NCBI RefSeq assembly: GCF_947259345.1
Contig: NZ_CAMYLS010000027.1
Span: 124,001-188,000, forward strand
Direction of reading: 5' to 3'
DNA from: an uncultured Maricaulis sp.
GTDB taxonomy: Bacteria > Pseudomonadota > Alphaproteobacteria > Caulobacterales > Maricaulaceae
DNA: 64,000 nt
The translations under genes were made by a program, and so were the position numbers. The notes under the pieces were generated by a model. The model saw nothing but the letters and a program-made list of their open reading frames with translations, searched no databases and was not told the origin of the DNA. Positions 27,583-63,574 of the stretch are shown here, in pieces (position 1 is the stretch's first letter; every line of letters begins with the position of its first letter).

Positions 27583-27607
27583 TGTTGGACGTCACAAGTC
27601 GTTGGAC
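27583..27607 (+). repeat. Left terminal inverted repeat and TnsB-site region
   Basis: 25 bp identical to the reverse complement of 63550-63574. It holds two GTTGGAC units (27584-27590 and 27601-27607). More related units follow inside: GTCCAA at 27646-27651, TTTGGAC at 27678-27684, GTTGGAT at 27709-27715. Spaced copies like these are expected of TnsB binding sites. Confidence 0.9.
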
Positions 27608-27731
27608 GTTGCGCAAGTACATTCAATATCTTAGCCGAAGCGTGCGTCCAATTTGGCTAGACCAAACGTCAAATCAGTTTGGACAAAACGTCTCATTCAG
27701 CAGAACAAGTTGGATCTTCCTCTCATCGGGC

Positions 27732-27760
27732 AAAAAAGCGCCGCCCCAGTTGGGGGCGGC
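27732..27760 (-). terminator. Intrinsic terminator of the tnsABC-tniQ operon
   Basis: Read on the minus strand: GCCGCCCC-CAACT-GGGGCGGC stem of 8 perfect GC-rich pairs, then GCTTTTTT. It lies 25 bp after the tniQ stop and before the left transposon end, so it would keep operon transcription from leaving the element. Confidence 0.9.
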
Positions 27761-27784
27761 CCTTAGACGATTTGGCTGTATCGA

Positions 27785-30013
27785 TTAGAGGTAGCGGTGA
27801 AGTTCGTGCGCACGACCCACAATTCGGTCGACGAGATGAGAGGTTTCAGACTCCGGCGAAACACCGAATCCAACACCATCAACGAGTACGAAGCCGCCAC
27901 CAGGTTCCCGCCGCACTTCGGCTCCAGGCCAGATCTTCTCAGGCTCAACAGCAGCAGCGAGGATCTTCCGCAAACGGCCGCCCTCATTGACAGACCTGAA
28001 CAATGCCACAAGGTCATAGCGATCAAGTGTCGGCTTGCGGGTAACTTTGAATGACCAATTCCGCGATGTCGCCTCCACTACAATCGCAGGATCAGTAATC
28101 ACGCGTGCTGTTCCAGGCACCGATGCCGATGCGAACTTCTCGGTAAGTTCATCGCGCAGTACCTCAAGGGCTTGGAAGCCGGTGCGACTCTCTAGCCTAA
28201 TGCCCACAAGACTGTGAACCTGTTCCCGAGAGACGAAACAAACTACACGTTTCCCATACTCGTTGATCGGCTCCACGCCTTTTTTTCTGAGCAACTTGAG
28301 CGCGCTCCGCGCAGAGCATCTCAACAACGGGGCATAATCAGCCGCCCTGGCGTAGGCGTCCTCGAATGCATCGAGAGACGCCTCGCAAATCCGTGATCGG
28401 CCAGATTCATCCTCGACAATCTTCAGGTAAGAAAGCTCAACCAGCTGGGCCAAACCGTCAGTTTCCGTTCCGAGACGTGCCTTTGCTTTCGCGAACGTGA
28501 TTGCGTTCTTGATCTGGGCACCGGGCCGAAGGCGTGTCTTTTGGAAATAGGCGACCCTCGCACCATGGAAGAACGGCGCATCTTGATCATAATCGATCAG
28601 GCCAATGGTATTATTCCGAATGAGCTGTGAATAGGCTGCGGGGAGCGAGATGCCGACTTTAGCGGCAAACGACGCGAGAGGCATTCCCTTGGGGTCGAAG
28701 CCCTCGCGCCGCCCCTGGTGCGCCCGGGCGATAAAGGCTTTGATCGCGTCTTCCTGGAAATAGCGCTGCCCATCACACCGGAAGTCCATTTTGAGGGTCC
28801 CCCTGCTGACCAGCTCGTCGACCTCATCAATTGTGCAGCCCAGCTCCGCCGCGACGTGCTCCAAAGATAAAGCGGTGGCAATATAGCGCCTGACAGCATC
28901 GATGTTGTCACTACTGAGGCGATAAGCCCGTGTGTGAGCGCATCGCTGAGTCGGAACCGCCGCCGCCTCCAAAATCTTGCGCAGATATTTGCTTTCGAGC
29001 TTCAAGTCAGTAGCGACTGATTCCAAAGTCCAGGCCCCGTCCGCGCCGTCATGTTGAGACAGCCTGCCGGAGGGAGTAGCAAGACCACTACGAACCCGAA
29101 CTTCGCCAAAGCAATCGCTGACCAGCGTACGCAAGCCTTCCGTTGGAATGGTGCGAGTGAGCTGCGGGGCGTAGTGGCAGCGCGAGTGATAGCGAGTCTG
29201 ATCGGAATCAGGCTGCAGCCACTTAGCCTCCGCGAGAAATTTCACGATTGCGTCTCGGCCCGCAAGCAGTGACGGAAAACTGAACTGCGCCAAATTTCGG
29301 AGCTCACATGGTGTGTGCGAAGGCGATTCTATCCCTCGGTGGAGCTTGGTCAGGACGACCGCAGCCCGGAGAACGGAATGCAAGGACTGTCCAGCAAAGT
29401 GAGAAGGCTCTGCCGTCTCCACCCCCGTTACCTTGTTGAAGACGTGACGATCCAACGCGGTGGCGGGGTAGGGTATGGCGTGGTCTTGGCCAATCATTAC
29501 ACCCCGCTGGGTCCAGCCGGCCTCCGGGTACCGCCAATCAATCGGGTCGCCGTCGAGTCCCTCGATCAGCCTCACGTCATGGATGGGGCATGCGGCCACC
29601 GGCACGATGTCGAACCAAATCCGGATATAGCGCTCTTCCTCCAGGCAGAGCGGGCAGACCCGGCGTCGACCCTTCGAGAACGTCCGACTGGGGAGCAGAT
29701 GACCGCAGATTTCATAGCCTTGAGTCGTGCGCCTGGGCGTGTTCCAGGCGAGTTCGTCGCTACCGTAGATGGGGAGTTGGTTCACAACCTCCAACTGCTC
29801 GTCGAAATCCCAGTCTAGTCCGTTCAGGCCTAGCGAGAGCAGAAAGGCCTCGGTACTGAACGCGTAGTTGGCGGTCGCTGCCCGCTGCAAAAATCCGTAA
29901 ACGGGCTCGTGCGGATAGACCTCACCCGGCCAGTTCGACATGGGAAGCCTAGCGATATCCACTACGTCTTGATGGGCACTGACCATCTTATTTCCTTCCA
30001 TTGCCGCGGTCAT
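27785..30013 (-). CDS. tniQ: TniQ/TnsD-family target-selection protein
   Basis: 742 aa. In Tn7-like elements TniQ/TnsD proteins bind the target DNA and recruit TnsC. The N-terminal TniQ domain has the typical start (NWPGEVYPHEPVYGFLQR) and a zinc site C120-x2-C123-x18-C142-x2-H145 (RVCPLCLEEERYIRIWF, ACPIHDVRL). The C-terminal about 550 residues contain several helix-turn-helix-like stretches (for example LEHVAAELGCTIDEVDELV, ASFAAKVGISLPAAYSQLI). Long TniQ proteins of this kind usually act as sequence-specific TnsD, not as short Cascade-bound TniQ. Its start overlaps the tnsC stop by 4 bp. Confidence 0.92.
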   Translation of the reverse strand: MTAAMEGNKMVSAHQDVVDIARLPMSNWPGEVYPHEPVYGFLQRAATANYAFSTEAFLLSLGLNGLDWDFDEQLEVVNQLPIYGSDELAWNTPRRTTQGYEICGHLLPSRTFSKGRRRVCPLCLEEERYIRIWFDIVPVAACPIHDVRLIEGLDGDPIDWRYPEAGWTQRGVMIGQDHAIPYPATALDRHVFNKVTGVETAEPSHFAGQSLHSVLRAAVVLTKLHRGIESPSHTPCELRNLAQFSFPSLLAGRDAIVKFLAEAKWLQPDSDQTRYHSRCHYAPQLTRTIPTEGLRTLVSDCFGEVRVRSGLATPSGRLSQHDGADGAWTLESVATDLKLESKYLRKILEAAAVPTQRCAHTRAYRLSSDNIDAVRRYIATALSLEHVAAELGCTIDEVDELVSRGTLKMDFRCDGQRYFQEDAIKAFIARAHQGRREGFDPKGMPLASFAAKVGISLPAAYSQLIRNNTIGLIDYDQDAPFFHGARVAYFQKTRLRPGAQIKNAITFAKAKARLGTETDGLAQLVELSYLKIVEDESGRSRICEASLDAFEDAYARAADYAPLLRCSARSALKLLRKKGVEPINEYGKRVVCFVSREQVHSLVGIRLESRTGFQALEVLRDELTEKFASASVPGTARVITDPAIVVEATSRNWSFKVTRKPTLDRYDLVALFRSVNEGGRLRKILAAAVEPEKIWPGAEVRREPGGGFVLVDGVGFGVSPESETSHLVDRIVGRAHELHRYL

Positions 30014-30915
30014 GAGAGCGACGGGTCGTTGCGGAATGGATTGAAAACCTCATTGGGGCGCTTGCGATCGTCGTATGCCTCCGCGAAATGGCAGAGTTCC
30101 AGCCTATCCGAACCGGCTTCGAGCGCGATTTCGCCCGCGGCGATCATGTAGACCTTGAGGATGCCGATACATCCTTTTGTCGCTTTGAAGAGTCGGCTCG
30201 AAAAATCCATTGAGGCAAAATCAGAGAGCTCGAACGGCATTTCCTCGTCGAACTTGTGACAAAGGACCCGAAAATGCTGGCAGTCTACGGGGTCCGTCCA
30301 GTCGTAGGGACGCAGCCGCTTGTAAGGCAGGCCGCCGCGCCCGATGAGCTGAGAATCCTCTGCGATGATCGAATAAGTCTCCGGCAGTCCGATGCAAAGG
30401 ATGTTGAACTGATTGAGGTTGAGCATCTTGCGCAGCAGTTTGCGCGAAAAACTAAGCACCTTCCTGTTCTTCTCAGGGAAGAGCTCCTGAGCCTCATCAA
30501 AGATGACAAACTGAACTTCCGACCGTTGGAGTTCCCGCAGGATCGCCAGGATTAAGTTGGAGTTAGTCATCCGCAGCGAGACCTGCATGCCAAGTCCGCT
30601 GGCGATGCTGTCCAGCACTGCGCGAGCTCCGCCCTCGATGGGAGAATCGACCAGCAAAACGCTGCGCTTAATCCCATCTGCTCCGATCTCCGGCTTGTAT
30701 TCCGCCAGAACTTCAGATGCGCCGTAAGTCTTACCGGTCCGGCTTTCGCCGATCAGCGCACAGATATTGCCCCGACCCGGCACTCCACCTTCGACGGGTT
30801 TGAAGAATCGCCTAATGGCCTTCGTTGCTTGCTGATGGTTGGCATGGTCAACGAAGATGTTTGTCATCTGCCTCTGACGATCCGCCGGCAGCCGTTCCTT
30901 GAAGTCACGCATCAC
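30010..30915 (-). CDS. tnsC: TnsC/TniB-type AAA+ transposition regulator
   Basis: 301 aa. The ATPase forms filaments on DNA and connects target selection to the transposase. Walker A GESRTGKT is at residues 56-63, Walker B VIFDEAQE at 137-144, and sensor-like LCIGLPETY near 185. It is short like TniB or CRISPR-transposon TnsC, lacking the long tails of E. coli Tn7 TnsC (555 aa). Overlaps tnsB by 11 bp and tniQ by 4 bp. Confidence 0.93.
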   Translation of the reverse strand: MMRDFKERLPADRQRQMTNIFVDHANHQQATKAIRRFFKPVEGGVPGRGNICALIGESRTGKTYGASEVLAEYKPEIGADGIKRSVLLVDSPIEGGARAVLDSIASGLGMQVSLRMTNSNLILAILRELQRSEVQFVIFDEAQELFPEKNRKVLSFSRKLLRKMLNLNQFNILCIGLPETYSIIAEDSQLIGRGGLPYKRLRPYDWTDPVDCQHFRVLCHKFDEEMPFELSDFASMDFSSRLFKATKGCIGILKVYMIAAGEIALEAGSDRLELCHFAEAYDDRKRPNEVFNPFRNDPSLS

Positions 30916-33109
30916 TTCTACTCCCTGAATTGACTTGCGCGGCGAGCATGAGGATCTCGTCCATGTCGTCGCTCCCGGCAGCCGAGTTGATTTCGATCTT
31001 GGAAATTTGGGTTTCGCCGGTAGGAGGCGGTTCCAAACCGGTGGTCGGATCCGAGGTCACAAGCACAGGCTCTTCGTGGACTGCGGTCAGGGGTATGAGA
31101 TCTGCTTCGCCTCCACACTGATCCTCGAATACGAGCTCGCTTACGCCCGGATGGGCACGGTTGCCGTAGAGATAGCGGGTGAGCTTGCGTTCGAGTTGCT
31201 TGCGGCGGCCCGACCGGAGGGCACCCATCCCTGCATTTATCAGGGCCGCCCTAGCCTTCCAGAGCGCTTCCGGGTCGCTGCGGTGTTCCTCCCGCATCAG
31301 CTCGTGCTCGCGGCAAAGCCGGTGCTGGAAAACAGAGAGCCCCTTGGTGTACTTCCGCCACTTGTCGACGACCGGAAGCTCGATGACCTCTTTGGCGTGA
31401 TGGTTGTCGAGGTACACCTTAGAGACATCGTAGGGATCGCGGCGGACGTGGTACTTGGCTGAACAAGCCTTGGACGACTGACCTCTGTGATCGGGATGGG
31501 CGAGAATGCGATCCAGGTCAGGCGACCAGTACCTGATATGATCCCATTCAACGCCGTACTTCTGGACCGTACGCTCGGCGGTCTGCCCAGCGAGCGCGAT
31601 GAAGAGCTCCTCGCTGGGAAGGCTCGGGCTGTCGAGAAGGTCCAGCTTGTCTCGCCACGCGTCGATCGGTGCCCTTGGAACCCCCGGCGCCCTGCCGAGT
31701 CCCCGGTTCGGCCGCCGATTGTAGTCCGTGACGATCCATTTGGTCGCGAGATCACGAAACTCTGACAGCGTCAAAACAGGCGCCTCCGGCTCCTCGTAAT
31801 CGCGGTGCTGAACCGCGTTAGAGTGGGTCGTGCCGGGGAAGCGGTGGCTAAAGCGCGCCACTTCGCGCATGAAGCGTTCGACAAGGCCCTTGTGCCAGGG
31901 TTCACGCGGGGGAAGGCGAATGAGATTGAAGCCCAGGTCCGCAGCAGCGGCCAAGAGGTGACCGTTGGCAAACTCTCTTCCGTTGTCGATGTAGAGATTC
32001 TCAATCCGGCCCATACAAGGCCAGTCTTCGTCATTGAGGCCATCGATATGGTCAATGCGCTTCTGAAAGATTGCATTGCGCAGACCGTCTAGAACGGAAG
32101 CGTAGCCCGGGACGTCGAACGAGATCGAAAACCCGACAACCATGCGGGTGGCGCGGTCCAGAAACGCGATAAGGTAAGGACGTCCGAGAATGACGCGGTT
32201 GTCGTCGACGAGAATGAGATCCACAGGCGTAAAATCGACCTCAACCTCGCCGTAAGGGCGATCAGGCAACCCACGCGTCTGGTAGCTCTGGCAATTCTTA
32301 CGCGCATAGTATGTGCCGATACGTCCCGCCTGTTTCACGAAAGGCGACACCTTCCTGCGAATCTCGCGCTCAAGCGTCGACAGGCTCGGCGGCGTCAGAA
32401 GTCCTTTCTCGTCGAGGTGTTTGAGCGGAGCGGACTCGCTATATTTCTTGCCTTCCGCCGAGCGGTTGACGTCAGAGATGTAGCTCAGTGCCTCGAGGTG
32501 AGCATCTTTTATCGAACCGCCCTGAAGGTACCGGTCGACAGCGCGATCAAGCGCGACCTTTTTCGCTTCGGGGAGCCTTGAGCCCCTTTTTCCCTTCAGG
32601 TCATGACGCGGAGCGTAAGCGGCGAGGCCGATTTCTTGGAAATGGGCGTCGTGCAAGCGCTTCCAGTTGAGCACCGAGGTAGGCGAGGGCGAGGTTTCCT
32701 CACCGCGTTCAAGGGCTTTCTCGGCGATCCGATCCTTGAGCCACTTCCGGCTTGTTCGAAATCCGGTCGGATGCTGCATCACATATTTCACGTAGTCATG
32801 TTTGAGCGCCGCGGCGGCTCGCGCGTGTGGGTCTTCCAGGTGCGGTGCCATCGGAGAAAGGGGTGGGCACATAGATGATCGGGATCGGTATTTAAGTTTC
32901 CCAGAGCCATAGAGGTCGACCAACCGAAGATCGGTTTCGATCAGCAATTCTTGTGTCTCGAGGTGAATAAGTATCCACTTGTCGCGTTGGCGCTTTTGGA
33001 CAAAGTGCTCCTCACCGTTAATCCAAACACTATCGCCGACAACAAGTCTCAGCCGGGGATAGAGATTGCCATGTGGAACCTCGACTGATTTGAGGTGAGA
33101 ACTGGTCAT
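30905..33109 (-). CDS. tnsB: TnsB/TniA-type DDE transposase
   Basis: 734 aa. RNase-H-fold Mu-type integrase catalytic core with D292 (EVEVDFTPVD), D375 (YIDNGREF) and E411 (HKGLVERF); the catalytic triad is complete. N-terminal helix-turn-helix regions bind the end repeats; the C-terminal beta-barrel and tail (residues 560-734) would contact TnsC. TnsB cuts the 3' ends and joins them to the target. Overlaps tnsA by 4 bp. Confidence 0.95.
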   Translation of the reverse strand: MTSSHLKSVEVPHGNLYPRLRLVVGDSVWINGEEHFVQKRQRDKWILIHLETQELLIETDLRLVDLYGSGKLKYRSRSSMCPPLSPMAPHLEDPHARAAAALKHDYVKYVMQHPTGFRTSRKWLKDRIAEKALERGEETSPSPTSVLNWKRLHDAHFQEIGLAAYAPRHDLKGKRGSRLPEAKKVALDRAVDRYLQGGSIKDAHLEALSYISDVNRSAEGKKYSESAPLKHLDEKGLLTPPSLSTLEREIRRKVSPFVKQAGRIGTYYARKNCQSYQTRGLPDRPYGEVEVDFTPVDLILVDDNRVILGRPYLIAFLDRATRMVVGFSISFDVPGYASVLDGLRNAIFQKRIDHIDGLNDEDWPCMGRIENLYIDNGREFANGHLLAAAADLGFNLIRLPPREPWHKGLVERFMREVARFSHRFPGTTHSNAVQHRDYEEPEAPVLTLSEFRDLATKWIVTDYNRRPNRGLGRAPGVPRAPIDAWRDKLDLLDSPSLPSEELFIALAGQTAERTVQKYGVEWDHIRYWSPDLDRILAHPDHRGQSSKACSAKYHVRRDPYDVSKVYLDNHHAKEVIELPVVDKWRKYTKGLSVFQHRLCREHELMREEHRSDPEALWKARAALINAGMGALRSGRRKQLERKLTRYLYGNRAHPGVSELVFEDQCGGEADLIPLTAVHEEPVLVTSDPTTGLEPPPTGETQISKIEINSAAGSDDMDEILMLAAQVNSGSRSDA

Positions 33110-33867
33110 TCAGCGGCCTCATTGAACCGCACTTCAGTGTTGCGCCCATACTTTGCGCCTGAAGCGAGTACGACCTCGCCGGCAAGGCCCAAGCGCATTA
33201 CCGAGCCAAAGGCCTCGGCCATCTGACAACGCGCTTCGATTGATGCTTCTTCGCAGAGTTGGCCGATGCTTGAGACGCCGCCGTGTGCTTCAAGCGTACG
33301 TCGCACCGTGTATTCACTCGACGGATCCTGCGGTGCATGCCGGTGGCGGTACATCGTCCGCGCGTTTGACAGCCTGGGCTCTGCGTAAAGGTCGCGCTCC
33401 GTCCAGACGAGCAATTCGACGCCGTGATCAAAACGATATGCTTGGCGAATAGCGGCTACTCGCGACACCCATTGGTCCGCTTCAGCGAAGTAGCTTGCCT
33501 TCGTGTCAATAGCAAAAAGGCGTTCGTCTTTATTCAAAGCGATGAAATCAGGTGTGTATTCACGCCTAACTCGCCCGCTATCATTGCTTTCCATCCAATA
33601 GAGGAGCGGATTCGGCTGGCAGACATAGTATTGAATGCGAGGGTCTACCGAAAGAAGGAGGTGGCCTAAGCTTTCGAGGTGGCTTTCAAACGGCGCGTAT
33701 GAATTCAGGCATTTGGGAGTTTTGGCGAAAATCCCGTCGCGTGCGACCCAAACCTTTCCGGGCTTCCAGGTCCTCGTGGGCTCCGCGCCTTGATAGAGTC
33801 CGAGCTGGCGAAATTTTGAAGCGCGGCTTCCCCGCGGCGCGAATGTGGCTTTATCGGTCATGACCAT
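33106..33867 (-). CDS. tnsA: TnsA-type transposon endonuclease
   Basis: 253 aa. Restriction-endonuclease-like nuclease that cuts the 5' strands so that the element leaves by cut-and-paste. Active-site residues can be placed at E61/E65 (FESHLES), D107 (REYTPDF) and K123 (FAIDTKA). A C-terminal winged-helix-like part follows (YTVRRTLEAHGGVSSIGQL). First gene of the tnsABC-tniQ operon, behind an AT-rich regulatory gap. ATG choice between 33867 and 33861 is open. Confidence 0.92.
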   Translation of the reverse strand: MVMTDKATFAPRGSRASKFRQLGLYQGAEPTRTWKPGKVWVARDGIFAKTPKCLNSYAPFESHLESLGHLLLSVDPRIQYYVCQPNPLLYWMESNDSGRVRREYTPDFIALNKDERLFAIDTKASYFAEADQWVSRVAAIRQAYRFDHGVELLVWTERDLYAEPRLSNARTMYRHRHAPQDPSSEYTVRRTLEAHGGVSSIGQLCEEASIEARCQMAEAFGSVMRLGLAGEVVLASGAKYGRNTEVRFNEAAE

Positions 33868-33924: not shown

Positions 33925-33971
33925 TTTAGTCTATGGTTAATGCTCGCGGCTGGGCAAGGACAAGAGCTGCA

Positions 33972-34526
33972 ATGAAGTTCGAAATTGAAGAGACATTACA
34001 CGGACCTAAGCGAGTTGCGGAAATGACGAGCTTGGCAATGGACGGTCAACGGAACTGGCGACACCGAGGGCACCTAGGTCCGAGCGATGGCACGCGTGGA
34101 AAAATGAGGACAAGGTCCGTCGCGGCTCTCGCGGTCCGCGCTTGGGCTTCGTCACTTGGCTTTCCGCCGCGCGAAAGTGAGCAGCTGGGCCAAGCAACAG
34201 CGGCGAGCGTATTATACGCTGCTATTATCAACTCGCCTTCGACACTGAAAGTAGAGGGGACACGCTCAGCAGTGGCCGAGTTTTTCGCGCAATATTCCGA
34301 GCACGACCATATCGCACGGGGCGTGAGCGGTCTCGGCGACACTCAGCAAGTTATCTCAATTACTTGGGCGGACAACGGCCCGCCAGAGCTCAACAAGAAC
34401 GTGCCGGGAGCAAACGAGCTCGATGAAGTGATCGCGATGCGACAGTTAAATTTGATCGCACTCGGCGACTGGGTCGCTGATCAAGCTGATCATCCACTCT
34501 TTCTGATCAAAGCTCTCGACGCCTGA
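33972..34526 (+). CDS. Unknown protein divergent from tnsA
   Basis: 184 aa from ATG 33972, which has AAGGA about 11 bp upstream; an earlier in-frame ATG at 33933 has no ribosome site. No family recognised. The N-terminal third is basic (RNWRHRGHLGP, GTRGKMRTRSVAALAVRAWAS), the rest acidic and mostly helical. It shares its promoter gap with the transposition operon, so it may be a regulator or an accessory transposition factor, but nothing in the sequence proves a DNA-binding fold. Confidence 0.6.
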   Translation: MKFEIEETLHGPKRVAEMTSLAMDGQRNWRHRGHLGPSDGTRGKMRTRSVAALAVRAWASSLGFPPRESEQLGQATAASVLYAAIINSPSTLKVEGTRSAVAEFFAQYSEHDHIARGVSGLGDTQQVISITWADNGPPELNKNVPGANELDEVIAMRQLNLIALGDWVADQADHPLFLIKALDA

Positions 34527-38318: not shown

Positions 38319-38888
38319 TTATCCCTCAGGCGGAAAGCTGTCCCGCAACCGCCTGCGCGCCCGGTAGACACGCACTTCCGCAGCCTTTTCAGACAAGCCC
38401 ATGACCGATCCGATTTCAGCGTGGCTCATCCCGTCGATTACGGAAAGCAAGAGCGGTGTCCGCAAACCCTCGGGCATGGCTTGGATGGCAGTATTCACGC
38501 GCGCCAGCTCATCCCGGTCAGAAACGATCCGTTCAGGTGTGGTCGGATCGACTGGCGCGGGCACCGAAGGTTCTTCCAGGCCTATCCAGTTGCGCACCGC
38601 GCGGCGGCGATGATGGTCCTTCGCCTTGTTCCGGGCGATCACAAACATCCAGGTTACGAAGGCGCGGGTCTCGTCGAAGCGGTGAAGGTTTCGGTGGATG
38701 GCGATAAAAGTGTTCTGCGCAACATCGTCGGCATCGGACCGACTGCCGAGCTGCCGTTCGAGGAAATTCACCAGCCGGGGCGCGTGGCGTTGCATCAGGC
38801 GATTGAAGGCCATTCGATCGCCCGCCCGCGCCCGGCAAGCCAATTGTTCGTCGCTGGGCGTCAGACCGGGGGCGTCAGCGTTCGGCAT
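38319..38888 (-). CDS. CnrH-like ECF sigma factor
   Basis: 189 aa from ATG 38888. Region 2 (FNRLMQRHAPRLVNFLERQLGSRSDADDVAQNTFIAIHRN, TWMFVIARNKAKDHHRR) and region 4 (PEGLRTPLLLSVIDGMSHAEIGSVMGLSEKAAEVRVYRARRRLRD) are both intact. It overlaps the CnrX-like gene by 14 bp. The order anti-sigma, sensor, sigma equals cnrYXH of Cupriavidus, where nickel or cobalt releases the sigma factor. Confidence 0.88.
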   Translation of the reverse strand: MPNADAPGLTPSDEQLACRARAGDRMAFNRLMQRHAPRLVNFLERQLGSRSDADDVAQNTFIAIHRNLHRFDETRAFVTWMFVIARNKAKDHHRRRAVRNWIGLEEPSVPAPVDPTTPERIVSDRDELARVNTAIQAMPEGLRTPLLLSVIDGMSHAEIGSVMGLSEKAAEVRVYRARRRLRDSFPPEG

Positions 38889-39309
38889 CAAGGGCCGCCG
38901 CCAGGCGCGCATCGAATATTTCGCGCTGCTCGACGTCCATCACGGCGCGCATGGCGAGGATGTGATTGAGCGTGGACAGCTGCAATTCGCCCATCACATC
39001 ATGAAGGGCCTCTGCAGCCTCGACGACTTCCGGTGACATTTCCCGACTTTCCATCAAGGACGTGCCGATCGCGTGCCGGGCCTCTGCCAGTCGTTGGTCG
39101 AAGGCAGATTTTTCGCGAGCAAAATCCGCCTCCAAGGCCTCGATTTCCGCTTCCTGATCGCGGGTCAAATGGAGCTGGCCGTGAATCACGGCGTGAAGGC
39201 TGACCGTCACGGTATCGGAACGATTGCCTAGCTGAGCGCCCAGCCACACGCCTGCCAGTCCGCCCAGAAGCCCCAAGATTGCCGCTGTAACGCCTGCGCG
39301 CCAGATCAC
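38875..39309 (-). CDS. CnrX-like periplasmic metal sensor
   Basis: 144 aa. One N-terminal anchor helix (about 5-27) and a four-helix periplasmic domain. H39, H43, E60, H116 and M120 have exactly the relative spacing of the known CnrX metal ligands (H42, H46, E63, H119, M123): HAVIH, EALEADF, and HILAM. This suggests Ni/Co sensing. It overlaps the CnrY-like gene by 4 bp and the sigma gene by 14 bp. Confidence 0.85.
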   Translation of the reverse strand: MIWRAGVTAAILGLLGGLAGVWLGAQLGNRSDTVTVSLHAVIHGQLHLTRDQEAEIEALEADFAREKSAFDQRLAEARHAIGTSLMESREMSPEVVEAAEALHDVMGELQLSTLNHILAMRAVMDVEQREIFDARLAAALDAER

Positions 39310-43270: not shown

Positions 43271-43296
43271 CGGGCAGTCCTCCTTTGGATTTCCCG

Positions 43297-43327
43297 GTTG
43301 TGAGGCTTCCAGTGGCTGGAAGGTCAA
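43297..43327 (-). promoter_or_regulatory. CueR-type promoter of the copper ATPase gene
   Basis: On the minus strand: -35 TTGACC, a 19-bp spacer holding TTCC-AGCCACT-GGAA, and a weak -10 CACAAC. The over-long 19-bp spacer with a central dyad marks MerR-family activation; TTCC-N7-GGAA resembles CueR boxes. A second copy of the same box stands before the cus operon. Confidence 0.75.
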
Positions 43328-56000: not shown

Positions 56001-56177
56001 GGCGGGCGTGACGTCGGGGAAAGCGTCAACCGGCATGGTCCGGAAGGTGACGCCGCCCGCTACGATGACCGCGATGAAGCCGAGCACCGCCAGGAGGCGT
56101 CCGCCGGCGAGGCGATGCAGGAGCCGCGTGGCCGCCCCTTGGTATTCCGGGGAGGTGTTGTCAGTGGGCGTGTCCAT
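53040..56177 (-). CDS. czcA: CzcA-type RND heavy-metal efflux pump
   Basis: 1045 aa, complete. Transmembrane-4 signature MMVDGAVVMVENANRR, typical of divalent-cation (Co/Zn/Cd/Ni) HME-RND pumps. The N-terminus ALVQVFTETEGLAPEEVERYVTFPVE and the porter and docking regions are intact. It overlaps the adaptor gene by 17 bp. It is the last gene of a czcCBA-like operon with a His-rich first gene. Confidence 0.92.
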   Translation of the reverse strand: MDTPTDNTSPEYQGAATRLLHRLAGGRLLAVLGFIAVIVAGGVTFRTMPVDAFPDVTPALVQVFTETEGLAPEEVERYVTFPVETAMNGLPRLTEVRSTSNFGLSVVNIYFEDGTDIYWARQLVGERLRLAREDIPNGFGEPAMGPITTGLGQILFYFLDSTDGALNGVELRTIQDWLVKFDLQTIRGVTEVLSLGGFERQYQIEVRPDALLRYDLTVADVVAAVGANNANAGAQFLVENSEQYTVRAVGLAEGEHDLGDIVVKVVDGVPVRVRDIAGIGIGGAPRQGLATMNGQGEIVAGLVLKLIGANTNEVIGRVHDRLDRINETLPEGVEAVPYYDQSELVGAAVSTMTTALWQGALLVAVILFAFLRGWRPSLIVVASIPFSVGFALIAMRLFNVSANLMSLGGIATAIGMMVDGAVVMVENANRRLREAEAEANRRNVVAQACAEVLQPLVFAILIVVVVFLPILTLDGVEGKTFRPLAFAVVFAMAGSLVFAVLLAPAAAFLGLRPRSARAQGGGLYARWFGPAVGFFVARRWAAVLLAGVMLAAGALIFPRLGSEFTPRMNEGDLLIRLTMAPSISLPEARNTVTRFEQTLLDDFPEVERVVTRVGRGEVGAHADPVNSGEAFVALRPRSEWTTARTQADLLARMSERFEDFPGARFNITQPIAAATDELLTGTKADLAIKLFGEDMAVLEREAAEIARVIRGIDGSADVQTDQVTGAPQLRITVDRDAMSRFGLNVEDVLSVVRSAVGGETAGQVFEGIRRFDIVVRYPEADRANAERIGRIVLNGPGGELIPLSQVANVERIEGPRQVTRENGRRFITIQTNVRGRDIGSFVTEGQQAVAAGVDLPSGYYVEWGGQFELQQQANARFAVVIPVTLGIVMLLLLFSFGRLKSALLIVANIPLALVGGIAALWLTGQNLSVPASVGFIALFGIALGNGMVLVSFLDRFARTRRDVDAFSVEAAVMRAQPVLMTATTTGLGLMPLLFASGIGSEVQRPLAAVVIGGLVTSTVLTLLVLPAVYKWFAPRPVLPEQEEQT

Positions 56178-57393
56178 CTTCGAACTCCCCTTTTTGCAGT
56201 TCCGATTTCAGAGCGAAGGCGCCGGCGGTTGCGATACGTTCGCCCGGCTCGACCCCTGCGAGGATTTCCGCAAAGCGGTCAGAGCGCCGTCCGATGCGGA
56301 CCGGACGAACTTCGAAACCGTGATCGGTACGTACGAAGACCGCATCGGCGCCGTCGATCGTCTGCAGCGCACTGGCCGGCACACGGGTGCTGGCTCGGGC
56401 GGCGAGCGCCTCGGCGTGAACCGTGACGAACATGCCCGGACGCAAGCGCTCGCCGGCATTGTCGAGCACGATCCGTGCCCGGCCCGTGCGAGTGCTTTCG
56501 CCGAGCTGGGGGCTGACGAAGGCGATCTCGCTGACGATTTCGGGGCCGCCGTCGCCCGGATCGATCCGGACGGGACTTCCGGCCCGCAGCTGGTCGAGAT
56601 CGGCACCGTAGATGGCCGCATCGACCCAGACCGTGGACGTATCGGCAATGATAAAGGCCGGCGGCTGCGCGCCTTCCTCGATCACCTCGCCCAGCACGGC
56701 GTGGCGCTCGATGACGATTCCGGAGATCGGTGCCGCGAGCGCGTAGCGTGTCAGGGGCTGATCCGTTCCCGAGGCAAGGGTGGCGCGCGCCGCCTCGTCA
56801 ACGCCCAGCGCCTCCAATTGCTGGCGGGCGCTGCGCACCTCGATGCGCGATTCCTCCAACGCCTGGCGGGCGTCGAGGAAATCCTGTTCCGCCGAAATCT
56901 GCTGCTCCCACAGCCGCCTCTCGCGCTCGAACCGCGATTGGTTGAGGTCGAGGCGGGCCAGGGCGGACAGGGATCCGGCCTTGGCGTCCGCCAGGGCGCG
57001 ACTGTCGAGCACGGCGAGGAGCTGGCCGGTTTCGACCGCGTCACCCTCGGTGACATGGACGGCATGAACGATACCGGATACCCGCGGCGAGACATGGGCC
57101 AGACGCGTTTGGTCAAACCTGACCTCGGCGGGCAATTCCACCTCGCCATCCACGGGGCCAGAATCGACCGCGTCAACCGTAATGCCGAGCGCGGCGATAT
57201 CGTCGTCGGACAGCTCTATGATTCCGACTTCATCGGCGTGATTGTCCTCTGCATGCCCGGTGTCAGTCGCGTTGTCATGGGCATCTGCGCCTACTGGAGC
57301 CTCGTGCGCGGACACTTGAGCGGGCGGGCCCGAACAAGCAGCCAGGAGGGAAAATGCCGCCGTGCCGGCGAGCAGTGTTCTGGTCATTGTCAT
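56161..57393 (-). CDS. czcB: CzcB-type periplasmic adaptor lipoprotein
   Basis: 410 aa. Lipoprotein leader (LLAGTAAFSLLAAC), a His/Asp-rich linker (DAHDNATDTGHAEDNHADE) that may bind metal, then the HlyD lipoyl halves (LAHVSPRVSGIVHAVHVTEGDAVETGQLLAVLDS and the partner ALAAPISGIVIERHAVLGEV) and a beta-barrel. The tail is GEFEDGHAH. It links CzcA to CzcC. Confidence 0.9.
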   Translation of the reverse strand: MTMTRTLLAGTAAFSLLAACSGPPAQVSAHEAPVGADAHDNATDTGHAEDNHADEVGIIELSDDDIAALGITVDAVDSGPVDGEVELPAEVRFDQTRLAHVSPRVSGIVHAVHVTEGDAVETGQLLAVLDSRALADAKAGSLSALARLDLNQSRFERERRLWEQQISAEQDFLDARQALEESRIEVRSARQQLEALGVDEAARATLASGTDQPLTRYALAAPISGIVIERHAVLGEVIEEGAQPPAFIIADTSTVWVDAAIYGADLDQLRAGSPVRIDPGDGGPEIVSEIAFVSPQLGESTRTGRARIVLDNAGERLRPGMFVTVHAEALAARASTRVPASALQTIDGADAVFVRTDHGFEVRPVRIGRRSDRFAEILAGVEPGERIATAGAFALKSELQKGEFEDGHAH

Positions 57394-58700
57394 GGGTTTG
57401 CCTCCGCGCCGGCAACGCCGGCGAGCTGTTTCAGGCGAGGTGCTCCGAAGAGCACGTCAAGTTCGATGGCCGAGCGAGCGAGTTCTGCCCGGGCCTCAAT
57501 CGCCTGGATGCGTGTGTCGAAGTAAGTGCGCTGGACGTCCAGCAGATCGAGAAGCTGCAGCGCGCCCTCGCGATAGGCGAGACTGGTACGGGAGAAGGCG
57601 TTCTCAGCGGCAGGCAGCACGTGTCCGCTCAATGCTGCATAACGCTGCTGCGCGTCGCTCCACCGACGGTAGGCGGCTGCATGTCGCGCCAGCAATTGCC
57701 GCCGCAGAGCCTCCTCGTCCAGTCGGGCCCCGGTCTCGCGCGCCGCGGCTGCGGCGATCGCGCCCTGATTCCGGTCGATCACCGGGATCGGCATTTCGAC
57801 CATGGCGAGATACGCCGTCTCGCTATCGCTGCCATAGCGCCTAATCCCGGCACCGACCGTGATATCCGGGATGGCTTCGGCCCGTTCCCTGGCAATCTCT
57901 TCGCTTCGTGCCCGGGATGTCTGCTGGGCCACCGCCAGATCCGGATTGCGCCGCATCATCGCCTCCGGCGTCAGTGCCGACAGTTCCGGGTTGTTCACAA
58001 GCACGGACGGGGGCGCGACCTCGCCCGCCGCCGCGCCGCCCCACATCGCGGCCAGCGCAAGACCTGCACGCCGCGCCTCGGTCAACGCCGATGCCGCCTC
58101 GATGCCGGCCGTGGCGGCCAGAATATCGGCCCGGTCGAGATTGATCGGCGAGGACCGCCCCGCCTCGACGCGCTGGCGTATGGCCGAAGCGGCAGCTTCC
58201 GCGAGATCCTGGAGCTCCGCCCTGACGCGGGCGGTTTCCTGGGCGGCACGGGCGTCTACGAATGCCGTGGCCGCTTCGCCCAGAAGGCCGGCAATCTCGG
58301 CGTTCAGCCTTGCTGTCTCGACACCGGCCCAGGCCTCGGCCGCCTCACGGGCGCGGCGACGGTCGCCGCCCAGCGGGATGGTCTGGCGCACGGCGACGGT
58401 GAGGTCGCCATCTCCTATACCGCCGCGATCACCGCCAAAGCCTTCGAGTTCTGCCTCGAAGGAGGGATTGTCCCACAGCCCAGCTTGAAGGGCGTCGCCG
58501 TGTCGGGCGGTCACCTCAGCGCGCAACGAAGCGATATGCGGGTTGGAATGTACGGCGCGTTGCAGGGCCGAGGAGAGTTCAAGCGGACCATTCTGCGAGA
58601 CCGGCTGTGCCAGCACCGCGGACGCGATGAGAGCGCTGCAAGCCATGCCTGCAACCCCTCGACCCGGCCAATTCGGCCGGGGAGATTTGTCTGAATACAT
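57390..58700 (-). CDS. czcC: CzcC-type outer-membrane factor
   Basis: 436 aa. Signal peptide, then OEP-type helical repeats (LAGLLGEAATAFVDARAAQETARVRAEL; REGALQLLDLLDVQRTYFDTRIQAIEARAE). It overlaps czcB by 4 bp. The start ATG 58700 lies 48 bp after the stop of the His-rich gene. Confidence 0.9.
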   Translation of the reverse strand: MYSDKSPRPNWPGRGVAGMACSALIASAVLAQPVSQNGPLELSSALQRAVHSNPHIASLRAEVTARHGDALQAGLWDNPSFEAELEGFGGDRGGIGDGDLTVAVRQTIPLGGDRRRAREAAEAWAGVETARLNAEIAGLLGEAATAFVDARAAQETARVRAELQDLAEAAASAIRQRVEAGRSSPINLDRADILAATAGIEAASALTEARRAGLALAAMWGGAAAGEVAPPSVLVNNPELSALTPEAMMRRNPDLAVAQQTSRARSEEIARERAEAIPDITVGAGIRRYGSDSETAYLAMVEMPIPVIDRNQGAIAAAAARETGARLDEEALRRQLLARHAAAYRRWSDAQQRYAALSGHVLPAAENAFSRTSLAYREGALQLLDLLDVQRTYFDTRIQAIEARAELARSAIELDVLFGAPRLKQLAGVAGAEANP

Positions 58701-59370: not shown

Positions 59371-59904
59371 ATGTCAATTTTTAAGTCGAAATTTCTTGAT
59401 CGCACCGCGTCCAGCCTAAGCCAAATTCGCGGCGACCAACTGGGAATGTTGCCAATTCTGATCGCGTCCGATCTTCTTGTGAAATTCAAAGTTGAACAAA
59501 TTCTCACCGAGGTTGGCGCGTCGATCCCGATCTTCCCTGGGTTCAACTTTACCTTAGGCCGCAATCGGGGGGTTAGCTTCGGAATCCTGGATAGTTCGCA
59601 TTGGATTGCGCCCTATCTGCTTTCAAGTTTCGCCATCGTCTTGGTTGTTTTTGCATTGAGCTGGGCCGCACGGCAAAGCTCCAAACTCATCAACTTCGCC
59701 GGCATTCTGTTTGCGGCGGGCGGGTTGGCAAATGCGATCGATAGGCTTGGCGATGGAGCCGTAACAGATTATTTGGATTTTGGATGGCAGGCGCTCCGCT
59801 GGCCCACATTCAATTTGGCCGACATTCTTATCTTCATTGGCGTAGTTCTGTTACTGATCGCATGGAGGAATGGGTCTCAGAATTTGGAAGACGGCGAGCA
59901 ATAG
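59371..59904 (+). CDS. lspA: Signal peptidase II (cargo copy)
   Basis: 177 aa, four transmembrane helices. It cleaves lipoprotein signal peptides. Both catalytic Asp boxes are present: NAIDRLGDGAVTDYLDF and FNLADI, with GRNRGVSFGIL. An N-terminal extension of about 20 residues is unlike housekeeping LspA. Cargo lspA genes accompany CDF/MerR genes in lead- and zinc-resistance islands (pbrBC type). It is convergent with the MerR gene, 4 bp apart. Confidence 0.9.
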   Translation: MSIFKSKFLDRTASSLSQIRGDQLGMLPILIASDLLVKFKVEQILTEVGASIPIFPGFNFTLGRNRGVSFGILDSSHWIAPYLLSSFAIVLVVFALSWAARQSSKLINFAGILFAAGGLANAIDRLGDGAVTDYLDFGWQALRWPTFNLADILIFIGVVLLLIAWRNGSQNLEDGEQ

Positions 59905-59908
59905 TCAA

Positions 59909-60355
59909 CTATTGCTCTTTGAGAGCCTTTGATTTGTGATCCGACAGGCATTTGGAGTGATCGAAGAGGCTTGTGACGATTTCACAAGAGCCGACTTTGC
60001 CACCGGCGCAGCCGTCGATCATGCGCATAAGTTCGCTTTCGAGCACACGAAGCTGCTCGATGCGTTTTTGCGTTTCAACTAGATGATGCCGCGCAAGTTC
60101 GTCCGCCTTGGCACAATCTGTGCCAGGGTTCTCCTGAAGATCGATCAGGTCTCGAATGGCTTCGACGGTAAAACCTAGATCACGCGCATGTCGGATAAAG
60201 CCGAGCAAGTCCACCGAGGCTTGCCCGTAGACGCGCCGTCCGCTTTCAACCCGCCTCGGTTCTGGCATTAGGCCGACGCTCTCGTAATACCGGATCGTCG
60301 TCACTTTGACGCCTGACGTTTCTGCCGCTTGGCCGATGGTGAATTCTTTTTGCAT
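59909..60355 (-). CDS. MerR-family regulator, Zn/Pb/Cd type
   Basis: 148 aa from ATG 60355. HTH start FTIGQAAETSGVKVTTIRYYESVGLM; metal ligands C81, C116, C124 and C136 (TDCAKAD, DGCAGGKVGSC, HSKC) fit ZntR/PbrR/CadR-like divalent-metal sensors. It is divergent from the CDF gene, with a perfect MerR dyad between them. The frame is open upstream but the HTH begins here. Confidence 0.88.
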   Translation of the reverse strand: MQKEFTIGQAAETSGVKVTTIRYYESVGLMPEPRRVESGRRVYGQASVDLLGFIRHARDLGFTVEAIRDLIDLQENPGTDCAKADELARHHLVETQKRIEQLRVLESELMRMIDGCAGGKVGSCEIVTSLFDHSKCLSDHKSKALKEQ

Positions 60356-60362
60356 TTTTCTC

Positions 60363-60393
60363 TTGCTTCTACAGTCGCTGTAGAAATTAGACT
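60363..60393 (+). promoter_or_regulatory. MerR-type promoter of the CDF gene
   Basis: -35 TTGCTT, a 19-bp spacer with the perfect dyad TTCTACAG-TCG-CTGTAGAA (8-bp arms, overlapping the -35 end), -10 TAGACT. The divergent MerR gene begins 8 bp to the left, so one site can control both. Confidence 0.85.
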
Positions 60394-60419
60394 CCATCTT
60401 AAACGTAGGAGTCAAGAAA

Positions 60420-61055
60420 ATGAGTTGTTGCCCAAGCGACCAAAAATTCGATGGATCATCGGTCGCGTACAGACGCGCCCTGTGGGCCGTCATTTTTATC
60501 AATCTTGTGATGTTCGTCGTCGAAATCTCGGCAGGCTTCGCTTCAGGTTCGCAATCGCTGAAAGCCGATGCCCTGGATTTCGCAGGCGATACGATGACCT
60601 ACACAATCAGCCTTCTGGTCATTGGCTCCGCTCTCGCGGTTCGAGCCAAAGCCGCTCTCTTCAAAGGTGGCCTTTTGTTCGCGATCGCGATTGCCGTGCT
60701 GAGCATGACACTGCTCCGCGCATTCTCTGGCGAGCCGCCAGTCGCAGAGACCATGGGCATTGTCGGGTTCGCGGCACTACTCGCCAACGCTATCAGCGTG
60801 CTGATCCTTCTCAAATGGAGAGACGGTGACGCAAACGTCCGTTCGGTTTGGCTTTGCTCTCGTAATGACGCTATCGGCAATGTCGGCGTCATGATCGCCG
60901 GTGGCCTCGTTGCCCTGACAGGGTCAGCCTGGCCGGATCTCATTCTCGCGTTTGTGCTCGCCGGCATATTCACCCGCTCGGCTTGGTCCATCTGCTCGCA
61001 GGCTCTCTCAGAGCTTCGCGACCACGCAGCAGTCGCCAACACAGGAGAAGCGTAA
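60420..61055 (+). CDS. Short CDF-family cation efflux protein
   Basis: 211 aa with six hydrophobic segments. CDF signatures DALDFAGDT (transmembrane 2) and SRNDAIGN (transmembrane 5) supply the metal site; SCCPSDQ at the N-terminus adds Cys. It lacks the C-terminal cytosolic domain of YiiP/CzcD, a short form known beside MerR regulators. TAGGAG precedes the ATG. Stop and next start overlap (TAATG at 61053). Confidence 0.88.
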   Translation: MSCCPSDQKFDGSSVAYRRALWAVIFINLVMFVVEISAGFASGSQSLKADALDFAGDTMTYTISLLVIGSALAVRAKAALFKGGLLFAIAIAVLSMTLLRAFSGEPPVAETMGIVGFAALLANAISVLILLKWRDGDANVRSVWLCSRNDAIGNVGVMIAGGLVALTGSAWPDLILAFVLAGIFTRSAWSICSQALSELRDHAAVANTGEA

Positions 61056-61609
61056 TGTCCCCTTTGCTCACCGGTGTCGTCGCTTATGTTCTCATAACGG
61101 CCGCTCTCTCGATCCCATTCATGTTTCGAGCGCGGTCTGAGTTTCGACAGCAAGGTAAATGGTCGCCGCTGACCGCTGCCTTCTCGGGCCTCATCATGCA
61201 CGGGCACTTCCTCGCCACGATCGCTCTCGCCTGGCTCGATCGTGGCAGTTTGTTCGCGTCGAACATGATCTCGCTGGCGATCGGGGGAGGGCTCTTCCTT
61301 GGTGGCGCTTACGTCATTTTCCTTGGCCGCTACGCCTATGGTTCACAGAAGCGGGTTTACGGCTTGCTCGAAGATGAGTTGATCCAACACGGTATCTATA
61401 AGCGCACACGCAATCCCCAGTATGTCGGCTACAGCGGCATGTTTCTCGGTGCTGCCATCGCGGCCGGATCCGGACTCGCCCTGTTTTCCGCATTGGCCTT
61501 CATCGCGATCATCCACGTGTTCATCACTTGGGTAGAGGAGCCGCACATTCGCAGAACCTTCGGAGATACGTTTGATCAGTATGCGCGCAAGGTCGGTCGG
61601 TATTGGTAG
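61055..61609 (+). CDS. ICMT/PEMT-like membrane methyltransferase
   Basis: 184 aa, about five hydrophobic segments. The C-terminal SAM-binding signature is present: HGIYKRTRNPQYVGYSGMFLG, then VEEPHIRRTFGDTFDQYARKVGRYW, as in isoprenylcysteine carboxyl methyltransferase-like proteins. The substrate is unknown. Translation-coupled to the CDF gene; this pairing recurs in metal islands. Confidence 0.85.
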   Translation: MSPLLTGVVAYVLITAALSIPFMFRARSEFRQQGKWSPLTAAFSGLIMHGHFLATIALAWLDRGSLFASNMISLAIGGGLFLGGAYVIFLGRYAYGSQKRVYGLLEDELIQHGIYKRTRNPQYVGYSGMFLGAAIAAGSGLALFSALAFIAIIHVFITWVEEPHIRRTFGDTFDQYARKVGRYW

Positions 61610-61655
61610 CGGAGCGTAGATCCTCGAATCCTGATCGCGAATTCTACATCAGGCG

Positions 61656-62072
61656 TTAGTTTAGAGTCTTGCTCGGTGCCTTTAGTGACAGGACGAGCGC
61701 ACAGTCCGGCGTGTCTGTGCGCTGGCACTGGCTCGTGATCTCTTCCAGAGACGCTGCGAGCTGCCTGAGATCGGCGACCTTGCGATGGATTTGGGACAGA
61801 TGCATCTCGGCCATCCCTGCAACCTGTTTGCAGGAAAAGGTCTGCTTCTCCGTCATGGTAAGAAGTTCCCTGACTTCCGCGAGAGCAAATCCCAACTGTC
61901 TTAGCCGAAGTGCAAACCGCAGGCGCTCGATGTCCGCCTGCGAAAACAGCCTGTGGCCAGCGTCGGAGCGCGCCGATGCGGCGACCAGATCGATGCTCTC
62001 ATAGTATCGGATCGTCTCGATGTTGCAGTCCAACAGCTTCGCGACGGTGCCTCGTTTAAGCGGTCCCTTCAT
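61656..62072 (-). CDS. merR: MerR-family regulator, mercury type
   Basis: 138 aa. HTH with AKLLDCNIETIRYYESIDLV; C81, C116 and C124 correspond to the three mercury ligands of Tn501 MerR (82, 117, 126). It is divergent from merT with a MerR promoter between. The sequence does not prove mercury specificity, but the three-Cys pattern and merT fit. Confidence 0.85.
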   Translation of the reverse strand: MKGPLKRGTVAKLLDCNIETIRYYESIDLVAASARSDAGHRLFSQADIERLRFALRLRQLGFALAEVRELLTMTEKQTFSCKQVAGMAEMHLSQIHRKVADLRQLAASLEEITSQCQRTDTPDCALVLSLKAPSKTLN

Positions 62073-62142: not shown

Positions 62143-62505
62143 ATGAGATCGACCCAGAAAAACCTTATCCCTTCATCCTTCGTATCTGGCAGCGGGGCAG
62201 TCAGCGGCTTTCTCGCTTTTGTCGGCGCGTCCTGCTGCGTGGTTCCGATCTTACTAGTTCAACTTGGTGTCGCCTCCGGCTTGGTTGCAAAGCTCGGTTT
62301 CTTTGCACGCTGGCAGGATTGGTTCGCTTGGGGGGCGACCGGCATGCTCGCGTTCTCGCTGACGCTGGCGTTGTGGCGCGGAAGCCCGGGCCGGATATTC
62401 TGGATATGGTGGATTGTTGGCGCGGTATTTCTCGCCGTGTCGCTCATCCTGCCGAACTACGAGATGCGATTGCAAAGCTGGTTATTGGACTGGCTCCGAG
62501 CTTGA
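62143..62505 (+). CDS. merT: MerT-like mercuric ion transporter
   Basis: 120 aa, three transmembrane helices. The vicinal Cys pair GASCCVVP in helix 1 is the hallmark of MerT, which takes Hg(II) from the periplasm to the cytosol. It lacks an obvious second Cys pair in the loop. There is no merP or merA nearby, so uptake would not be followed by reduction by a cargo-encoded enzyme. Confidence 0.85.
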   Translation: MRSTQKNLIPSSFVSGSGAVSGFLAFVGASCCVVPILLVQLGVASGLVAKLGFFARWQDWFAWGATGMLAFSLTLALWRGSPGRIFWIWWIVGAVFLAVSLILPNYEMRLQSWLLDWLRA

Positions 62506-62506
62506 T

Positions 62507-63046
62507 ATGGCCAAACCTTCGCCGACCTATCAGTTTCGCGACGGAGGAACTATACCGCCGCCCGGGCCTATCGGTCGTCTCTCACGCCTGATTTTCGGCG
62601 CAGGCGCAATCTATTGGGCGGCCCAATTGTTTCGCTTCGGCGAGATGGATGCCTTGACCAATGCATGGGTGATCGGGTTCACGGCGTTTGCTGTCCACTT
62701 GGCCCCATACACGCTGAACATTGGACTGGGTTTTCGGCTAGGGCTTTGGCCTCGACTGCTGGCTACGGGCTTGTTGATCGGCGCCGCGGCTATCGGATGG
62801 CAATCTTCCGGCGAGTGGATCAATTCACAGCTTTGGTCGACCACCTATTGGCTCAATACCTATGTCTATCTCCACCTTGGTGGTTCATTTTTCCTGGCTG
62901 CTCTCTTCGGAACGCCCGGCTGCGAAATGCGCGCAATACCGATATTGATTGGCCGGATAGCAGGGCGTGAAACCCGCGATCACGAATGTCCCGGGCCGAT
63001 TGGTGCAATTGATCAATGGGAGCGTTCCTTAAAGTCCGATGGTTGA
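62507..63046 (+). CDS. Unknown membrane protein of the merT operon
   Basis: 179 aa, four or five hydrophobic segments, with a C-terminal soluble tail containing Cys (TPGCEMR, HECPGPIG). It begins 2 bp after the merT stop and overlaps the next gene by 8 bp, so all three are cotranscribed. No family recognised. It could be part of a mercury transport or handling system in place of merA. Confidence 0.65.
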   Translation: MAKPSPTYQFRDGGTIPPPGPIGRLSRLIFGAGAIYWAAQLFRFGEMDALTNAWVIGFTAFAVHLAPYTLNIGLGFRLGLWPRLLATGLLIGAAAIGWQSSGEWINSQLWSTTYWLNTYVYLHLGGSFFLAALFGTPGCEMRAIPILIGRIAGRETRDHECPGPIGAIDQWERSLKSDG

Positions 63047-63290
63047 TATCCAACTCAAATCAACACTCACCTGTCCCCATTGTGGCAGCATACACGCCAA
63101 TTTGGAGATGCCGACGAACGCCTGCCAGTACTTCTGGGACTGTCCGTCATGCAGCACGCTGCTGAAACCGAAGCCGGGCGATTGCTGCGTCTTCTGCTCC
63201 TTTGGAACCGTACCGTGCCCGCCTATTCAGGAGGGCGATGCGTGCTGTGCAGCAGGGTGGCCTCCCCGCGCTCGTCGGCTTGGGTGTTAG
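63039..63290 (+). CDS. GDCCVxC-domain small Cys-rich protein
   Basis: 83 aa. A zinc-ribbon-like start (LTCPHCGS, WDCPSC) and the hallmark GDCCVFCSFGTVPCPPIQ. The family is described as GDCCVxC domain (seleno)proteins found with mer genes; here the variable position is an ordinary Cys codon (TGC), so no selenocysteine is needed. The C-terminus (DACCAAGWPPRARRLGC) is longer than usual. Confidence 0.85.
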   Translation: MVDIQLKSTLTCPHCGSIHANLEMPTNACQYFWDCPSCSTLLKPKPGDCCVFCSFGTVPCPPIQEGDACCAAGWPPRARRLGC

Positions 63291-63549
63291 AGTACGGCAC
63301 ATCATGCGCTTTGTGCGGTGAACCGGACAATTCAGACATCCGCCGAATACAGAACTCAGCCGACAGGTTATGACCCCTCCTAAGCCAAAGCGGATGCTAG
63401 GTGTTGGCAAGAAGTCAATGCGGCCAAATGATCGTACAGCAGATCAGGGCTGTCGACCTTGTCGTGGCCCTTTTGAACACACAAACGATCCACTTGGATC
63501 ATGAACCCCGACGCTTTCCAGCTTGGTTTGTCCAAGCTTCTTGGACTTT
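63291..63549. other. Noncoding right-end region of the transposon
   Basis: About 260 bp without a gene. It contains the palindrome GATCCACTTGGATC (63487-63500), TTGTCCAAG (63528-63536) and TTGGAC (63541-63546), which repeat the GTTGGAC-type units of the left end and are likely TnsB sites. Confidence 0.6.
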
Positions 63550-63574
63550 GTCCAACGACTTGTGACGTCCAACA
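63550..63574 (-). repeat. Right terminal inverted repeat
   Basis: Reverse complement identical over 25 bp to 27583-27607. It ends in ACA, followed at once by the AAAAA duplication. Confidence 0.92.

Follow-up and report, generated by a model that had tools for sequence, protein, structure and literature searches.

A complete Tn7-like element behind tRNA-Arg(CCG) in Maricaulis, with probable TniQ-directed homing and signs of recent movement between species

The DNA stretch analyzed here (64,000 nt, hereafter the window) belongs to an uncultured Maricaulis sp. (assembly GCF_947259345.1, contig NZ_CAMYLS010000027.1, positions 124,001 to 188,000) and contains a 35,992-bp Tn7-like element next to the gene for tRNA-Arg(CCG). 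The element is very probably a cut-and-paste transposon whose TniQ protein acts as TnsD, reads tRNA-Arg(CCG), and directs the right end to a position 5 bp behind the CCA. Homing to the end of a tRNA gene is the central point of this element, which the original prediction had not brought out. Near-identical copies in two other species, bordered by a different target-site duplication, support recent movement, and the element is plausibly active, as far as can be judged from sequence. The original prediction had described an intact Tn7-like element; its ends as well as tnsA, tnsB, tnsC, and tniQ were all found.

Comparisons within the genus were based on a set of 19 Maricaulis genomes, in which G000 is the window's own genome and G002 is considered to represent Maricaulis maris DSM 4734. 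The limits of the element and its insertion site in the window are given below.

27583..63574, whole Tn7-like element, 35,992 bp, with terminal inverted repeats and target-site duplication; the copy in G004 has equal limits
27578..27582, target-site duplication AAAAA, left copy; a single AAAAA is seen at the unoccupied G003 site
63575..63579, target-site duplication AAAAA, right copy
27583..27607, plus strand, left 25-bp terminal inverted repeat
63550..63574, minus strand, right 25-bp terminal inverted repeat
27583..27715, repeats of a TTGGAC-like motif at the left end, probably TnsB sites
63493..63574, repeats of a TTGGAC-like motif at the right end, likewise probably TnsB sites
63580..63656, minus strand, tRNA-Arg(CCG) (ARAGORN), the homing site, outside the element; it also adjoins the element in G004, in G279 (another genus), and in G002 (split gene)

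The element termini read TGT...ACA. The exact 25-bp inverted repeat TGTTGGACGTCACAAGTCGTTGGAC is located at 27583 and 63574, and the sequence beyond it diverges. Perfect inverted repeats of this length had been predicted and were confirmed to the base, as was the 5-bp duplication, with AAAAA at both ends. In a left-end search of the own genome, the 25-mer had two sites only, both being element tips. Across the window, TTGGAC-like motifs clustered most densely at the right end (11), followed by the left end (7 within 130 bp), with the next best cluster containing 3; TnsB probably binds at these motifs. The right end is separated by 5 bp from the CCA end of tRNA-Arg(CCG), and a 95-bp repeat, likewise present 3′ of other tRNA genes, borders the left end on the outside. 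Copies of this dispersed repeat of about 95 bp were located directly behind tRNA genes at 27488-27582 (tRNA-Arg, before the insertion), 10550-10641 (tRNA-Thr), and 18371-18447 (tRNA-Ala). The flank stretch holding the repeat had matches in 16 of the 19 Maricaulis genomes, many of them to the repeat itself.

TniQ was found 100% identical in three of the 19 genomes, the own one included. The G004 copy of the element (35,991 bp) is 99.2% identical over its full length, and the G002 copy was followed for 32,625 bp at 99.7% up to a contig end, its right end being on another contig. Both copies are inserted at the identical base position behind tRNA-Arg(CCG) as in the window and carry an AGAAA duplication at each end; the window insertion differs from them in its AAAAA duplication and in another trailer. 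Outside the element, aligned blocks of the G002 and G004 flanks were 72-84% alike to the window, except for the tRNA-trailer repeats of G002 (96% and 86%). The right flank of G004 was 78% alike from the element end onward, and on its left flank no block longer than 80 bp aligned within 700 bp of the left end. Since the element is 99.2-99.7% identical in genomes with such divergent flanks, it arrived after the species parted, and the near-identical copies at one base in two other species therefore point to recent movement between species.

A single old insertion that was inherited, or a tRNA region spread by homologous recombination, could be proposed in place of repeated transposition, as the same base is occupied in three species and AGAAA is common to G002 and G004. 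This explanation is improbable in view of the gap between element and flank identity, the divergent flanks of G004 right at the element, and the AAAAA duplication and other trailer of the window. Because they share AGAAA, the G002 and G004 copies may nevertheless represent one event, which counts against repeated transposition for this pair; the window insertion is a separate event. Differences between the copies were unevenly distributed. Of 297 differences between G004 and the window, 14 fall into the first 11 kb, which include the transposition genes. For both G002 and G004 they concentrate in the copper-efflux cargo at about 39-48 kb, which suggests cargo exchange by recombination around these genes, and in G004 also at 62-63 kb.

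Sites without the element were identified as well. All genomes of the set but G007, whose contig breaks off within the gene, yielded tRNA-Arg(CCG) in ARAGORN (18 of 19), and in 15 of these 18 genomes no element end was detected within 60 bp behind the tRNA. An element end lies behind the tRNA in G000 and G004, and behind a split tRNA half in G002, where tRNA-Arg next to the element is interrupted by an integrase island of about 53.7 kb, which carries an intact tRNA-Arg(CCG) of its own (L080, L131, contig C9). A longer flank was read for two genomes, G003 and G005. In G003, the trailer repeat is joined to tRNA-Arg and AAAAA is present once, i.e. the empty site that the original prediction had proposed to search for. 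Other breakpoints in related genomes, or the lack of any uninterrupted site, had been named as possible objections; the same base was used in G002 and G004, and uninterrupted sites are present.

The genes for transposition lie consecutively on the minus strand as overlapping open reading frames (ORFs), with tnsA and tnsB being separate ORFs and only 202 bp separating tniQ from the element end.

27785..30013, minus strand, tniQ/tnsD, 742 aa; Pfam TniQ PF06527, E 8.5e-11; zinc site C120 C123 C142 H145
30010..30915, minus strand, tnsC, 301-aa AAA+ ATPase; Pfam TniB and AAA_22; Tn6677 TnsC, E 8.6e-10
30905..33109, minus strand, tnsB, 734-aa DDE transposase; PseTnsAB, E 1.6e-47; Mu-transpos_C above and rve below cut-off
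33106..33867, minus strand, tnsA, 253-aa endonuclease; profile match to TnsA proteins 99.3%; no Pfam hit
33933..34526, plus strand, divergent ORF adjoining tnsA, 197 aa; without a Pfam match up to E 1

In TnsB, D292, D375, and E411, the presumed catalytic residues of a DDE transposase, are located at the predicted positions within stretches aligning with PseTnsB; the possible objection that the catalytic residues might fail to align with Tns proteins thus did not hold. In a TnsB search, the own genome was found to hold a single copy, that of the element. The predicted Walker A and B motifs of TnsC correspond to GESRTGKT (G56-T63) and D140-E141, with G56, S58, G61-T63, D140, and E141 invariant in the four relatives aligned. 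The zinc-site residues C120, C123, C142, and H145 of the 742-aa TniQ were likewise invariant across the four relatives aligned. At this site, Tn7 TnsD was matched weakly by profile (probability 49.5, E 1.7e-4, 42 columns), residues 382-430 matched HTH_17 below the cut-off, and no solved relative of TniQ was detected by sequence at E up to 0.1. By sequence, TnsA is the weakest of the four: the single sequence yielded only a weak family match (29 bits vs. a cut-off of 110) and no Pfam hit, and a search up to E 1 revealed no solved relative. Its four-member profile, however, matched a TnsA profile including that of Tn7 (probability 99.3, E 2e-20), and E61, D107, and K123 were invariant in its own alignment, so that the claim of a complete tnsA held despite the weak single-sequence match. 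A role of the divergent 197-aa ORF as regulator is only a guess.

By analogy with known families, TnsA and TnsB would cut and join the element ends, and TnsC would couple these ends to the target. TniQ, a single large protein, would serve as TnsD and read the DNA of the tRNA-Arg(CCG) gene, with a putative binding site inside the gene; a right end placed at a distance of 5 bp from the CCA would keep the tRNA whole. The Tns proteins are presumably active.

Homing might also be RNA-guided, with a hidden guide against the tRNA as in type V-K CRISPR-associated transposons (CASTs; CRISPR, clustered regularly interspaced short palindromic repeats), for which guide-directed homing to tRNA genes is known (passages of PMC11406308); TniQ of the element also scores to the CAST I-F TniQ model in PADLOC. 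We consider this very improbable. The element has 136 ORFs of 80 aa or more, many of them overlapping, and no Cas protein was detected in the 37 that were scanned with Pfam or in the 10 scanned with PADLOC. Between the element and the tRNA plus 44 bp, matches did not exceed 11 nt, which was also the length most often obtained in 200 shuffles, and were hence neither guide-like nor better than chance. No exact 16-nt repeats 20-120 bp apart, i.e. no exact repeat array, occur in the element. A tyrosine-integrase island that merely carries tns-like genes is hardly credible, even though tRNA genes are classic integrase sites (a passage of PMC11406308) and an integrase-bearing island entered the same tRNA in G002, since the 3′ half of the tRNA is not repeated in the window element (longest match again 11 nt), Pfam scans of 37 ORFs revealed no integrase, and the terminal inverted repeats with a 5-bp duplication contradict it. 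With no guide-like match and neither a Cas protein nor an integrase in the scanned ORFs, TniQ is therefore the likely target reader.

To place the element among Tn7-like groups, as the original prediction had recommended, a TnsB tree of 28 rows was calculated, in which G279 was entered as a 400-aa piece only. The window and G279 were joined at 100/99, and a group of five rows, comprising these two, the alphaproteobacterial genomes G538 and G716, and Sinorhizobium meliloti pSymB, was recovered at 100/99. The four-row set without Sinorhizobium was weak (80/47), as were the deeper forks, and Tn7 and Sinorhizobium are on long branches, making their placement unsure. Tn7, Tn6900, and the Tn5053 group lie outside these five rows. 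By TnsB sequence, the element is accordingly a member of an alphaproteobacterial group that is distinct from the rows used for Tn7, I-F3 CASTs, and Tn5053.

The element has what defines a Tn7-like transposon: the TnsB triad, TnsA, an AAA+ TnsC, a TniQ with zinc site, TGT...ACA ends, and a fixed attachment site. Tn7 itself encodes tnsABCDE, targets glmS with one fixed end at the target, and generates a 5-bp duplication. The element resembles it in TnsA, TnsB, TnsC, a TnsD-like TniQ, the 5-bp duplication, and a fixed end beside the target gene. It differs in that (i) its target is a tRNA end rather than glmS; (ii) no TnsE match was obtained in the ORFs scanned; (iii) TnsC has 301 aa, compared to 536 aa in Tn7 (by coordinates of one Tn7 locus); and (iv) the cargo occupies the space from the target-side end to tnsA, and tniQ is found 202 bp from the opposite end, unlike the layout of Tn7. 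Tn5053/Tn402 elements (tniABQR) likewise possess a TniB-type TnsC and a TniQ, but in two loci no TnsA is annotated before the transposase, and their TnsB rows fall into another group (100/100). I-F3 CASTs provided the best solved matches for TnsB (PseTnsAB) and TnsC (Tn6677), and TnsA and TnsB are also separate in a Tn6900-type locus. In contrast to these, no Cascade or other Cas effector was found in the scanned ORFs of the element, and I-F3 TnsB falls outside the five-row group. Similar in target choice are the I-B2 and I-D CASTs (PmcCAST and CyCAST), in which a large TnsD homes to a tRNA gene; according to passages of PMC10293859 and PMC11406308, they have a fused TnsAB and CRISPR parts, and CyCAST inserts 30-33 nt behind the tRNA. 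In the element, tnsA and tnsB are separate ORFs, no CRISPR part was found, and insertion occurs 4-5 nt behind the CCA. Given these CASTs and a general mention of Tn7-like elements behind tRNA genes in part of PMC8649781, tRNA-homing Tn7-like elements are an already known kind. The present lineage is set apart by its flush position, separate TnsA and TnsB, the lack of detected CRISPR parts, and a probable switch between tRNA-Arg and tRNA-Glu. No paper on this lineage was found in the literature searched, which omits most subscription papers.

Relatives outside the genus were few. In the order (398 genomes), TniQ matches at E up to 1e-3 were obtained in six genomes and full-length matches in four (G000, G002, G004, and G279), while TnsB matches at E up to 1e-20 occurred in 21, mostly weaker relatives. 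TnsB matched in four of the 137 genomes of the own family and in 22 of the 385 genomes of the class, the own one included in each case; among the others in the class, only G538 and G716 were strong, and these two were also the only ones of 96 genomes in their family to match at E up to 1e-50. G279 encodes a TniQ of 36% identity, and its element lies behind tRNA-Arg(CCG) with the right end 4 bp from the CCA. G000, G004, G002, and G279 therefore all use tRNA-Arg(CCG) as a fixed site in one orientation; in these and in G716, the end facing the tRNA is the one distal to tniQ. The G716 element (TnsB 33%; 21605-54377 of its contig) appears to lie 4 bp behind tRNA-Glu(CTC); each of its proposed ends is bordered by ATAGT, and the far one is less sure. 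G538 has a tRNA-Glu identical to that of G716, with a motif cluster right behind it. After residue 170, TniQ identity was 33% between the window and G279, 39% between G538 and G716, and 22-25% across these groups. This is weak evidence, given that divergence between the two groups also affects the other Tns proteins and that the G538 site is tentative. We give about even chances to an undescribed alphaproteobacterial CRISPR-free lineage in which the C-terminal part of one large TniQ reads the tRNA and has switched between tRNA-Arg(CCG) and tRNA-Glu(CTC), with insertions 4-5 bp behind the CCA. If true, this would represent a naturally occurring series of protein-guided integration systems that have been retargeted.

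Several observations weigh against TniQ-directed homing and its retargeting: (i) TniQ was named as reader by elimination; (ii) independent cases are few, as a full-length TniQ relative exists in only four of the 398 genomes of the order; (iii) the G279 duplication is imperfect (AAGAA left vs. AGAAT right), and (iv) its tnsB is broken into two ORFs; (v) the G716 far end matches at 11 of 14 bases with a full duplication, and a rival pair at 10 of 14, also with a full duplication; (vi) the G716 element was absent from the listing of an unguided end search; (vii) end searches in G538 yielded no far end; and (viii) none of 72,556 plasmid records matched TniQ over 80% of its length. The sole plasmid match was 22% over 53% of the length, and a plasmid vehicle was rejected. 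In viral contigs, 49 stretches matched TniQ patterns, none encoding a relative.

Further tRNA-related features were noted near TnsB relatives. The 3′ 49 nt of tRNA-Arg recur without a mismatch in the right end of the G279 element, at a distance of 138 bp from the tip (L078:14238-14286; local 50238-50286). At +76 to +137 of the G716 right end (L126:1681-1741), a degenerate tRNA-Arg-like stretch scored 43, compared to a maximum of 27 in 200 shuffles; no such stretch was found in the right ends of the window or G538 elements. On Sinorhizobium meliloti pSymB (L105, 11011-11160), three direct repeats like GCCAACAGCGTACAC come after tRNA-Arg(CCG), which lies 5.5 kb ahead of the TnsB relative. This is possibly another element at tRNA-Arg(CCG), which was left uncounted because end searches revealed no far end. 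A tRNA scan covered 13 loci of TnsB relatives, including G538 and G716. At L109, L112, and L114, weaker relatives have a tRNA gene within a few kb, which is tRNA-Ser(GGA) at two of the loci and tRNA-Gln(CTG) at another; these are perhaps further tRNA-homing elements.

A complete, recently mobile, and apparently CRISPR-free tRNA-homing Tn7-like system, with occupied and element-free sites and relatives seemingly at a second tRNA, makes it directly testable how a TnsD reads and changes its target. It also illustrates how metal-efflux genes can pass between marine Maricaulis species without gene breakage. The main cargo genes are listed below.

38875..39309, minus strand, heavy-metal resistance protein of the Metal_resist family (Pfam PF13801 above cut-off)
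40910..43327, minus strand, copper-type P-type ATPase (TIGR01511 above cut-off)
43343..43729, minus strand, CueR (TIGR02044 above cut-off)
43726..49846, minus strand, CusA/CzcA-family pump, CusB-like adaptor with CusF domains, and outer-membrane factor
53040..58700, minus strand, second CusA/CzcA-family efflux set
59371..62072, LspA-like protein, MerR-family regulator, CDF transporter, phospholipid-methyltransferase-like protein, and MerR-family regulator

The cargo had been described as almost wholly metal resistance. Metal genes indeed prevail, comprising Metal_resist, the copper P-type ATPase, CueR, two CusA/CzcA sets, the CDF transporter, and two further MerR regulators. The description was slightly too strong, however, as the element also carries genes for an acyltransferase, PepSY, ECF-sigma, an amino-acid permease, SnoaL-like, DUF2231, LspA-like, and phospholipid-methyltransferase-like proteins, as well as several unknown ORFs.

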